From: Staphylothermus sp.
GTDB taxonomy: Archaea > Thermoproteota > Thermoprotei_A > Sulfolobales > Desulfurococcaceae
DNA: 36,086 bases
Direction of reading: 5' to 3'
Assembly: GCA_021157925.1 (NCBI GenBank)
Contig: JAGGVR010000076.1
Location: forward strand, 1-36,086
In this document: one piece after another, positions 13,677 to 16,526 of the stretch
Position numbering within the stretch: the stretch's first letter is position 1
Layout: each line of letters begins with the position of its first letter
Position numbers and translations under genes: made by a program
The notes under the pieces: model-generated
What the model was told of the DNA's origin: nothing
Database searches by the model: none
The model's input: the letters and a program-made list of their open reading frames with translations, nothing else

Positions 13677-14987
13677 TTATGGAACAATTCTTGTCCTATC
13701 TCTTACAAATATTATTGCTTCTCTAATGTTTTCTAAGTTTAGCATTTTCATCATTAATCTCTCAATACCTAGTCCGAAACCTCCATGTGGTGGCATACTG
13801 TATTTAAAAGCTTCGAGGTAGAACTCGAAATTCTCTGGATTAAGCCCTTTGTCTTTCATAGCCTCAATTAGTTTATAGTATCTGTGTTCCCTCTGTCCAC
13901 CACTTGCTATTTCTAAGCCTTTATAGTCTAGATCGAATTTCCTGGTATGGTAACCATCTTCTTCTCTCATATAGTAGAATCCTGTTGCTTTCCATGGAAA
14001 ACCTACTATGAAATAGATCTTGTAGCCTTTCTCAGCCATGATCTCTCCAAGCTTTTTTTCGGCGGCGTCGGTGAGGTCTTCTCCTTCGGGTATTTCTATT
14101 CCCTCGGATCTAAGCATATCTACTGCTTCTTCAAATTTTATTCTCTTAAATGGGTGTGTCAGCCTTTCTATTTCTATTCCTAAAACTTCTTGTTCTTCTA
14201 CATAGTTTTCTCTTAAGTAGTCTGTTATGTAACATACTAGTTCTTCAAGAGTTTTCATAACATCTTCTACTCCATTAATAAAGCCTTGCTCAGCATCTAT
14301 TCCCCACGACTCGTTCAGGTGTCGCGTAGTATTGAATTTCTCTGCTCTGAAGTAGGGCGTTATTTCGAAAACTCTAGGCAAACCAGTCATCAAGATCTGT
14401 TTGTAAAGCTGAGGGCTTTGGCTGAGATAAGCTTCTTGCTCAAAATACTTTACTGGAAACAGTGTTGCTCCTCCCTCAGCTCCTGTAGCCACGATTTTCG
14501 GTGTATGTACTTCAATGAATCCTTTATCAATGAAATATTTCCTAGCAGCTTCGATTATACCAGCTCTTATTCTGAATATAGCTTTTTCCACGGGATTCCT
14601 TAATAACAAATATCTGTACTTGATCCTGGTATCTAAGAGTGTTGGTACTTTGCCAACGGTGTCTACTGGGAGAGGCTTTAGTGGCTCACTATATATAACT
14701 ATTGATTTAGCAATATATTCTACTCCTCTCTTACTCCTCTGGACTGGGGAAACTTCTCCTTCAAAACAAAGAGCAGTTCCAATATCGAGTTTTCGTGCTT
14801 TTTCATATAATTCTGGTTCGCGGTCTTTCTTTAACACTATAACGCTTGGCTTAACGCTGGTATCCCCACTTATTTCGATAATTACTACTTTACCAACCAC
14901 CTTTTTCCTGATAATCCATCCACATATTCTCAAAACGCCATACCCCGAAAACCAGTTGGCATTATCTATTACGCTAGAATAAACCAT
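13677..14987 (-). CDS. aspS: Aspartyl-tRNA synthetase, archaeal type
   Basis: A class II synthetase that charges tRNA with aspartate. The N-terminal 100 residues are an OB-fold anticodon-binding domain (GYGVLRICGWIIRKK). The catalytic core has GFIEVHTPKIVATGAEGGA, YLSQSPQLYKQ, motif 2 EITPYFRAEKFNTTRHLNE, FDLDYKGLEIASGGQREH and motif 3 GGFGLGIERLMM. The ending FVRDRTRIVP resembles the usual PRDRxRLTP of archaeal AspRS. The 436 residues match the archaeal form lacking the bacterial insertion. Whether it also charges tRNA-Asn cannot be read here. A TATA-like AATATTTATATAA (14994-15006) is unusually close to the ATG, so the true start may lie further in, for example at TTG 14933. Confidence 0.92.
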   Translation of the reverse strand: MVYSSVIDNANWFSGYGVLRICGWIIRKKVVGKVVIIEISGDTSVKPSVIVLKKDREPELYEKARKLDIGTALCFEGEVSPVQRSKRGVEYIAKSIVIYSEPLKPLPVDTVGKVPTLLDTRIKYRYLLLRNPVEKAIFRIRAGIIEAARKYFIDKGFIEVHTPKIVATGAEGGATLFPVKYFEQEAYLSQSPQLYKQILMTGLPRVFEITPYFRAEKFNTTRHLNESWGIDAEQGFINGVEDVMKTLEELVCYITDYLRENYVEEQEVLGIEIERLTHPFKRIKFEEAVDMLRSEGIEIPEGEDLTDAAEKKLGEIMAEKGYKIYFIVGFPWKATGFYYMREEDGYHTRKFDLDYKGLEIASGGQREHRYYKLIEAMKDKGLNPENFEFYLEAFKYSMPPHGGFGLGIERLMMKMLNLENIREAIIFVRDRTRIVP

Positions 14988-15132: not shown

Positions 15133-15141
15133 TACTTACTA

Positions 15142-15152
15142 AAATATTTAAG
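15142..15152 (+). promoter_or_regulatory. TATA box of the structured RNA / rpl35ae transcript
   Basis: AAATATTTAAG is preceded by CTAA and lies about 26 bases before the first G of GGCTAACCGCCC at 15176, the expected distance for an archaeal transcript start. The sharp switch from about 20% to over 65% GC at 15176-15182 agrees with the RNA beginning there. Confidence 0.55.
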
Positions 15153-15175
15153 GACGAAAAAATAAATATATTATA

Positions 15176-15346
15176 GGCTAACCGCCCACGCCCCCGGGTC
15201 CCGGGCCCCCGGGCAAAATGATGTTTTGGCTAAGTTGTGCTTAGCCAAACAGAGAGCCCGGGGATACTCCACCTGGGGGCGCCCTCTCCGATGGGAGAGG
15301 GTGGAGCTAGTGGTGGAGTTGCCTGGGCCACTGGCTCCGTGGGCGG
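15176..15346 (+). ncRNA. GC-rich structured RNA domain upstream of rpl35ae, class unknown
   Basis: The island is far richer in GC than anything else in the window, as structured RNAs of hyperthermophiles are. Stems I can pair: P1 closes the domain, CCGCCCACG (15182-15190) with CGTGGGCGG (15338-15346). An 8-bp stem CCCCGGGC (15207-15214) with GCCCGGGG (15256-15263) encloses a hairpin TTTGGCTAAG/CTTAGCCAAA (15225-15234, 15240-15249). A hairpin CCCTCTCC-GATG-GGAGAGGG is at 15282-15301. A 10-bp stem with one G-U pair joins 15304-15313 and 15328-15337. The loop of the last can pair six bases with ACTCCA at 15266-15271, a possible tertiary contact. I see none of the conserved cores of RNase P RNA, SRP RNA, tRNA or 5S rRNA. 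It may be a free RNA, but its position and the next element suggest a cis-acting leader. Confidence 0.65.
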
Positions 15347-15347
15347 G

Positions 15348-15393
15348 CTAGGGCTTCTCCTGAGAGATCACTACAAGTCCTAGACGGTGATCT
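15348..15393 (+). promoter_or_regulatory. Pseudoknot-capable element hiding the rpl35ae ribosome-binding site
   Basis: One base after the P1 stem of the RNA domain, CTAGGGCTT (15348-15356) can pair with AAGTCCTAG (15375-15383): nine pairs with one G-U. AGATCAC (15365-15371) can pair with GTGATCT (15387-15393), seven perfect pairs that include the ribosome-binding site GGTGATC (15386-15392) of rpl35ae. The order of strands (A5', B5', A3', B3') is that of an H-type pseudoknot; alternatively the two stems exclude each other. Either way a structural switch could open or close translation. Confidence 0.55.
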
Positions 15394-15395
15394 TG

Positions 15396-15656
15396 ATGAA
15401 GGTATTGAAAGGAGTAATAATAGGATATAGGAGAGGTCCTAGGAGCCAATATAATAGACAAGTTCTTATCAAAGTTAAAGAAGAGCATCCTCTGGGCTCA
15501 TTATGTGGTGCTAAGATATGGGTAATTGATAAGTATGGTAACAAGTATTGGGGCAAGATCACGAGGCTTCATAGCAAAAGAGGCATATATAGAGCTTTAT
15601 TTTACAAATCCATACCTGGACAGTTAATAAATAGTACTGTCCATATAGTGAAGTAA
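15396..15656 (+). CDS. rpl35ae: Large-subunit ribosomal protein L35Ae
   Basis: The roughly 86-residue protein matches eukaryotic/archaeal eL33 (L35Ae), a small beta-barrel protein of the large subunit. It starts KVLKGVIIGYRRGPRSQYNR, has GSLCGAKIWVIDKYGNKYWGKI in the middle (the usual 'G..v.W.....k...GkI') and RLHSKRGIYRALFYKSIPGQ near the end, then finishes with a strand (STVHIVK). The start is ATG 15396 with GGTGATC at 15386-15392. The family's N-terminus begins at the same place, so the GTG at 15387 is unlikely. The ribosome-binding site can be buried in an RNA stem (see 15348-15393), suggesting translational control. Confidence 0.93.
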   Translation: MKVLKGVIIGYRRGPRSQYNRQVLIKVKEEHPLGSLCGAKIWVIDKYGNKYWGKITRLHSKRGIYRALFYKSIPGQLINSTVHIVK

Positions 15657-15725: not shown

Positions 15726-16526
15726 TTGCCACGTAGAAAAATTACTAGGGGAAAACATGCATCAATACTTGATTTCTTAAGTATTTCATCCTCTAATAAA
15801 AATAAGGATCTTGACAAAACTCAGGAAAAAGAAGAAACAATTGCCTCAAATGAAGATATTAATAAAGTAAAAGAGAAACTAGAAGAAAGTGGTACTAATA
15901 AGTCTGAGGAAAATCTTAAAGAAAAGGCTGGATCAGCTAAGGAATCTATTGATGAAGATATAAGTGATTTATTAAGCATTCTAGGTAAAAGAAAAACTAT
16001 TAATAAGTCTCTCATGGAAACAACAAGTTCATCTACAGAGCAAGTTCCCATTAGTGAAATAGCTAATGAAAATAGTGATCTTTCAACCAAGAGCATTGCA
16101 GAAATCGATGTCGGTAAACTCGAGCTACCAACGGGTGAAATACTCGATAAGATTCTATGGGAAGGATTGAGTAAGGATAATGTAGTATGTGACTCTACGG
16201 GTAAATGTACTGATGGTATTAGTGTTGGGGAAATTTATAATGATCAATATGGGTTTAGGAGACAGCGTGGATATGTAAATACTACGAGGCTTCCAGTATA
16301 TACTGATTGGATTGTAGAGGAGGGGCTTGTTAAGAAAATATTGCCACGTGCATATGGTTTGAAGACAAATAGAGGTGCAGTAGCACTTATCCCTGAAGAC
16401 TTCTTATGTGAGTTACAAGCACGTTATGGTGTCGTACTTCTTAATTACGATAGATGTACTAAGTATAATTCTGTATTAGGATATGCTCAAGCTAAAACAT
16501 CGAGACGTTCTAGAAAGAAGAAGTAG
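15726..16526 (+). CDS. Unknown protein with disordered N-terminus and conserved-looking C-terminal domain
   Basis: 266 residues starting at TTG 15726, 69 bases after rpl35ae in the same direction. The first 130 residues are charged and rich in Lys, Glu, Ser and Asn, probably disordered or coiled (LDKTQEKEETIASNEDINK). The last 130 form a compact domain with VVCDSTGKC, FRRQRGYVNTTRLPVYTDWI and FLCELQARYGVVLLNYDRC. Its four or five cysteines could form disulfides or bind metal. It ends in a very basic tail (SRRSRKKK), suggesting nucleic-acid binding. I do not recognise a family. Context beside a ribosomal protein hints at a translation or RNA role, no more. Confidence 0.65.
   Translation: MPRRKITRGKHASILDFLSISSSNKNKDLDKTQEKEETIASNEDINKVKEKLEESGTNKSEENLKEKAGSAKESIDEDISDLLSILGKRKTINKSLMETTSSSTEQVPISEIANENSDLSTKSIAEIDVGKLELPTGEILDKILWEGLSKDNVVCDSTGKCTDGISVGEIYNDQYGFRRQRGYVNTTRLPVYTDWIVEEGLVKKILPRAYGLKTNRGAVALIPEDFLCELQARYGVVLLNYDRCTKYNSVLGYAQAKTSRRSRKKK

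Follow-up and report, generated by a model that had tools for sequence, protein, structure and literature searches.

What is the island of high GC content that lies in an AT-rich stretch of a Staphylothermus genome, just upstream of a ribosomal protein gene? A sequence-only reading had marked positions 15176-15346 as a structured RNA of no recognised class, and had proposed that it most likely serves as the sensor in a leader of the gene that follows. The plus strand at 15176-15350 contains 66% GC, against 34.9% for the window, by which we mean the whole 36,086-nt stretch of DNA that was analysed. The best 171-base stretch in the island reaches 67% and the next best elsewhere in the window 50% (z 6.7), and the island is the sole GC-rich stretch of its kind in the window. 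It had thus been located correctly, whereas its extent needs slight correction, the RNA running to 15350. The minimum free energy of 15176-15350 is -120.6 kcal/mol, compared with -85.7 +/- 5.1 in dinucleotide shuffles (z -6.9; 0 of 200 shuffles as good). Scanning the plus strand in 175-base stretches at 100-base steps gave -98.9 at the RNA site and -52.0 at the best other site. The antisense strand also folds, less well than the plus strand.

Covariance-model searches with Rfam 15, a check that the sequence-only reading had proposed, returned no match at the gathering cut-off anywhere in the window, and hence no known housekeeping RNA at the island. Permissive scans of the window and 12 homologues gave only chance-level, mutually inconsistent matches within the RNA; those to mir-512 and HgcG follow GC-rich hairpins, lie far below cut-off and were rejected. 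Archaeal RNase P and SRP RNAs resemble the present RNA in being stable, GC-rich, structured molecules with paired ends and K-turns, but they occur elsewhere in genomes that also carry it. RNase P RNA (RF00373) has its own copy at G000:C80:526-873, and SRP RNA (RF01857) is located elsewhere in G002, G016, G024, G005, G006 and G018; neither matches the RNA locus. SRP RNA was not found in the G000 assembly, which is 87% complete, and a tRNA search of the window was empty. A bulge-helix-bulge splice site at the terminal helix was rejected on reading, there being no outer helix in several genomes. The hgc and ssc RNAs of Pyrococcus, whose function is mostly unknown, likewise come to notice as GC islands in AT-rich genomes. 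The present RNA comes from another lineage and has no significant match in Rfam to members of that series, of which sscA is named in PMC3124441. A search of the open-access literature found no description of it. The RNA is a new class, set apart from every curated family, from the housekeeping RNAs and from RNAs described in open-access work, and the claim that it belongs to no recognised class is borne out by this and by the strong covariation described below.

The RNA is single copy, and in the window's family (Staphylothermus, Thermosphaera and Thermogladius relatives) 26 of 40 genomes, belonging to 13 of the 16 genera, carry a homologue. A nucleotide search of relatives recovered G002 at 97% identity and G016 and G024 at 82%; we take G024 and G016 to be Staphylothermus marinus F1 and S. 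hellenicus, and G019 to be Thermosphaera aggregans. Covariance models built in three rounds detect the RNA in 22 of the 40 family genomes at E < 1e-6. Reading upstream of aspS, the aspartyl-tRNA synthetase gene beside the RNA, added the short Thermogladius-like forms G010, G021 and G029, whose model scores are weak (E 0.0002-0.046), along with G036, where a partial copy stands at the end of a contig. The named records that surround this aspS gene belong to metagenome-assembled genomes of Desulfurococcales, Thermosphaera, Thermogladius and Staphylothermus. Another 4 of the 40 genomes could not be judged, their assemblies lacking the locus or breaking within it. Two genera, with 8 and 2 genomes, possess aspS, but those neighbouring regions that were read hold no RNA, and the models gave no match elsewhere; the lineage taken together therefore appears able to do without the RNA, unless it has moved or diverged in these two genera. 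Outside the family, searches at the level of the order (197 genomes), the class (229) and the phylum (398), in overlapping sets and with strict filters that could miss distant relatives, turned up no convincing match; a single 21-bit match, in G043 (E 0.04), is not convincing.

Comparison of these homologues, collected by covariance model and synteny, gives an architecture in which the two ends of the RNA (15176-15350, plus strand) pair with each other and three arms, P2, P3 and P4, meet at a tight four-way junction. We segmented 22 members by hand, verified them against their DNA and counted pairs helix by helix. The outermost helix, P0 (GGCY/GGCY), pairs GGCU at 15176-15179 with GGCU at 15346-15349 (86 of 88 standard pairs in the 22 members). 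It is followed by a three-base purine-rich bulge, AAC at 15180-15182 and RAN in most relatives, that separates it from P1 in the curated members. P1 joins 15183-15189 to 15339-15345 (148 of 149 standard pairs, with double changes), and it lies within the 9-bp stem CCGCCCACG/CGTGGGCGG at 15182-15190/15338-15346 that had been pointed out as closing the whole domain and is found exactly as claimed. The termini GGCYRA and GGCYA are conserved, the latter comprising the 3′ strand of P0 and a conserved A (15346-15350) and probably forming the 3′ end of the RNA. The P2 arm starts with P2a, 15190-15199 paired to 15271-15280 (201 of 201 standard pairs; double changes at 10 of 10 model pairs), and continues beyond an internal loop, J2, into P2b, 15207-15214 paired to 15256-15263, in which 98.8% of cells are paired and which adopts the same fold in isolated arms. 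P2b is capped by a K-turn-like GA/GA internal loop and the apical hairpin P2c (15215-15255). The P3 hairpin (15281-15302) shows double changes at 6 of 8 pairs and is missing from Desulfurococcus-like, Thermosphaera-like and Thermogladius-like members. P4 pairs 15303-15313 with 15328-15338 (188 of 188 standard pairs; double changes at 7 of 8 model pairs). At least five stems had been predicted, and more than five are found (P0/P1, P2a, P2b, P2c, P3 and P4).

The curated helices are 98-100% paired in the 22 members, and the sequences of P2a and P4 vary freely. Because these helices were picked as helices, such percentages are not evidence in themselves; the evidence is that all four Watson-Crick types exchange at the same pair. 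In a model-based alignment of 16 sequences, double changes occur at 36 of 51 pairs, 95.9% of cells are paired compared with 70.8% after shuffling, and the covariation score is 0.638 against 0.185 +/- 0.014 in shuffles, falling to 0.108-0.138 when partners are slid by one base; this alignment was fitted to the structure and is biased towards it, but the effect far exceeds the bias expected. The compensatory changes that the sequence-only reading had suggested looking for in related genomes are thus present. They are also visible at short range: within the Thermosphaera-like genus a C-G pair of P2a is exchanged for U-A, and each of the three differences inside the RNA between the window and its nearest relative, G002, keeps pairing. 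Member lengths (for example 165, 168, 169, 170, 174 and 175 bases, within an overall range of 120-180) differ by non-multiples of three, so that this is not a coding region. Counted on the plus strand, the helices of the 22 members include 46 G-U pairs but not one A-C pair, indicating that the structured molecule is the plus-strand transcript; this count and the poorer folding of the antisense strand rule out the latter as the RNA. From these comparisons the existence and fold of the RNA are near certain, and since its shape is kept pair by pair while the letters change, it almost certainly performs some job in the cell.

The loop of P4 forms a double pseudoknot with the internal loop of P2. 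L4 (UGGAGUUGCCUGGG, 15314-15327) docks onto both strands of J2: its 5′ half pairs with the 3′ strand AUACUCC (15264-15270) together with the first base of the 3′ strand of P2a, forming PK2 (partner 15314-15319), and its 3′ half pairs with the 5′ strand CCCGGGC (15200-15206), forming PK1 (partner 15321-15327). When J2 strands were reassigned among 12 representative genomes, 0 of 50000 permutations reached the own-genome score for PK1 and 1 of 50000 did so for PK2. The pairings differ widely between members, with PK1 appearing, for example, as CCAGGU/ACCUGG, CCAGAC/GUCUGG, CCAGAU/AUCUGG, ACCCGG/CCGGGU and UCCCCGC/GCGGGGG, and PK2 as ACUCCA/UGGAGU, GGCCCA/UGGGCC, ACCAC/GUGGU and GCCCCC/GGGGGC. 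PK2 is shrunk to 3-5 pairs in Thermosphaera-like members. In Thermogladius-like members, where the J2 strands and the P4 loop are short, both contacts are missing, the joint loss that is expected if J2 and L4 depend on each other. A possible contact of ACTCCA with TGGAGT (15266-15271/15314-15319) had been noticed in the sequence; it is matched exactly, is real and represents one half of the double pseudoknot. P2a (10 bp) and P4 (11 bp in the window) would each extend about one helical turn from the junction, and since L4 pairs at once with both J2 strands, its docking would clamp the neighbouring helices P2 and P4 parallel, side by side.

The P2 arm invites comparison with a known class of RNA. 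By reading, most full-length members show UGA and GA on the opposing strands of the K-turn-like loop above P2b, next to the apical stem, with bulges of 3-7 bases; the motif is imperfect in G003, G009 and G017 and missing in Desulfurococcus-like members. Archaeal H/ACA hairpins run in the order lower stem, two-stranded pocket, upper stem and K-turn, and P2 resembles them in the order of its parts, with P2a as lower stem, J2 as pocket, P2b as an 8-bp upper stem and, in most full-length members, the K-turn-like loop above it. The RNA could accordingly be read as a derived H/ACA-type guide whose guide hairpin is P2 and whose L4 occupies the pocket, either as target or as plug. The pairing of L4 with the two pocket strands is what a target would show, three Desulfurococcus-like members have AAA after P2a, and both this RNA and the archaeal H/ACA family HgcG (RF00064) are GC-rich hyperthermophile RNAs. 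Yet the present RNA mostly lacks an ANA box, P3 following P2a directly in the members that have it, and it has a four-way junction with P3 and P4. Its pocket is filled in cis by a covarying loop, with pocket strands that change along with L4 and are not matched to a fixed rRNA. HgcG, the nearest H/ACA family by score, reaches 14.9-15.5 bits against a cut-off of 77. The residues left between PK2 and PK1 are U, GAU, AAU, GA, A, CG, G and others, with U in some members but GA or other in G017 and G030; we rejected L4 as a target because the unpaired residue is not always U. A derived guide RNA is, on balance, an unlikely description of this molecule.

The surroundings of the RNA bear on whether it acts on a neighbouring gene. 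A BRE/TATA-like element, AAAATATTTAAGG, lies at 15141-15153 on the plus strand, with a counterpart at near-fixed spacing in relatives. A TATA-like hexamer (TATAAG, TTTAAG, TTTAAA, TAATAA or similar) stands 29-36 bases upstream of the first base of the RNA in 19 of 20 tabulated genomes, and in the remaining one the spacing is ambiguous, 29 or 39. The RNA thus appears to have its own conserved promoter, in agreement with the TATA box previously assigned to it. From the position of the element and the usual archaeal spacing, transcription would start within about 10 bases of 15176, a few bases upstream.

The gene for a non-discriminating aspartyl-tRNA synthetase, aspS (13677-14987, minus strand; NF003483, E 3e-161), is the constant synteny partner, adjoining the RNA wherever the locus is complete. 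It is divergent from the RNA in most members, about 60-340 bp away. As its sole constant neighbour, aspS could be what the RNA regulates, for example by sensing AspRS or the tRNA pool and feeding back on aspS expression. However, the RNA is encoded on the opposite strand and outside the aspS coding region, G012 has it on the opposite flank, downstream of aspS, and two genera carry the same aspS with no RNA found, which makes such a regulator decidedly improbable. The divergent AspRS is itself a family-specific version, with 67-95% identity among near-full-length copies within the family, whereas 78 genomes sampled from other families of the order contain no match at E <= 1e-110; most family members also encode a second class II synthetase, about 40% identical to it. 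In one genus without the RNA, a tRNA-Met gene sits beside aspS instead (L143, L145, L147, L166, L167, L169 and L171), and in several of its members this gene, missed by ARAGORN, appears to be interrupted by GC-rich inserts. A tRNA-Met gene also follows the RNA gene in the Desulfurococcus-like G022 (L141 3124-3198), and a tRNA gene occurs in the RNA neighbourhood of G030.

Downstream the order is variable. The ribosomal protein gene rpl35ae (15396-15656, plus strand; PF01247, synteny) follows the RNA in 4 genomes only, those of the window, G002, G016 and G024. The proposal that the RNA is a riboswitch-like or protein-sensing 5′ leader controlling rpl35ae can draw on its ending 46 bases before the start codon with no apparent TATA box between, and on a small hairpin, present in G002 too, that covers the Shine-Dalgarno sequence; in the window, the RNA also shares with ribosomal protein leaders a structured fold ahead of a ribosomal protein gene. 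In contrast to such leaders and to riboswitches, it has its own promoter and no fixed downstream gene. An uncharacterised gene comes after the RNA in seven genomes, and in G004, G005, G009 and G011, which represent four genera, a gene of about 900 codons runs convergently towards it. In G005 rpl35ae lies 1 Mb from the RNA, and several near-complete genomes with the RNA gave no L35ae match. This variable synteny, with rpl35ae undetected or distant, excludes a leader for rpl35ae as the conserved function; the sequence-only reading fails on this point, and we regard control of that gene by the RNA as very improbable. In the window's genome and in Staphylothermus, rpl35ae would simply have come to lie just downstream and may share the transcript of the RNA, read-through being likely in the window's genome since the gene starts 46 bases past the RNA; it is probably a neighbour by position with no part in the function of the RNA. 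Directly before its ATG at 15396 stands the hairpin AGATCAC/GTGATCT (15365-15393), which covers the Shine-Dalgarno sequence GGTGATCT, is kept in G002 and could possibly serve translational control of rpl35ae in this genus, separately from the RNA. Farther downstream, 15726-16526 encodes a conserved 266-aa protein that has no Pfam or NCBIfam match and whose gene often lies downstream of the RNA (cluster c1, 14 loci).

As improbable as the leader is a catalytic RNA, self-cleaving or of another kind, that the double pseudoknot would hold in shape. The compact pseudoknotted fold and the conserved terminal GGCYRA and GGCYA might speak for it, but there are almost no conserved unpaired bases from which to form an active site, and the paired conserved ends suggest a stable RNA.

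Because gene order varies downstream but not towards aspS, because a convergent gene follows in four genera and because the promoter is conserved, we conclude that this is a stand-alone gene; as far as comparative analysis reaches, both its fold and its independence of a downstream gene are demonstrated. L7Ae binds the K-turns of many archaeal noncoding RNAs (PMC5539422), and the K-turn-like loop above P2b is a putative site for it here. The reading that we favour, and think probable, is a stand-alone structured RNA, transcribed from its own TATA promoter, that would be stable and would work in trans, giving an RNA-protein particle its rigid scaffold and holding L7Ae at that loop. Judging only from its neighbours, we would guess at a role in translation or RNA maturation.

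To our knowledge, well-supported RNA families of Crenarchaeota beyond the universal set of rRNA, tRNA, RNase P, SRP and guide RNAs are few. More speculatively, the RNA may represent a new class of archaeal RNA-protein particle, built on an RNA that binds L7Ae and has an H/ACA-like arm, the pocket of which is occupied in cis by another loop of the molecule. It could be a guide RNA converted into a self-locked scaffold or switch, or a particle with a function new to any organism; we hold this possibility with little confidence. The RNA is single copy, its fold is established by covariation down to two pseudoknots and it occurs in cultivated organisms (Staphylothermus marinus and Thermosphaera aggregans), so that its expression, partners and structure are directly testable, and a loop that docks onto the two strands of an internal loop at once offers a clear target for structural work. 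It may also reveal what the GC-rich RNAs of hyperthermophiles do beyond the known machinery.
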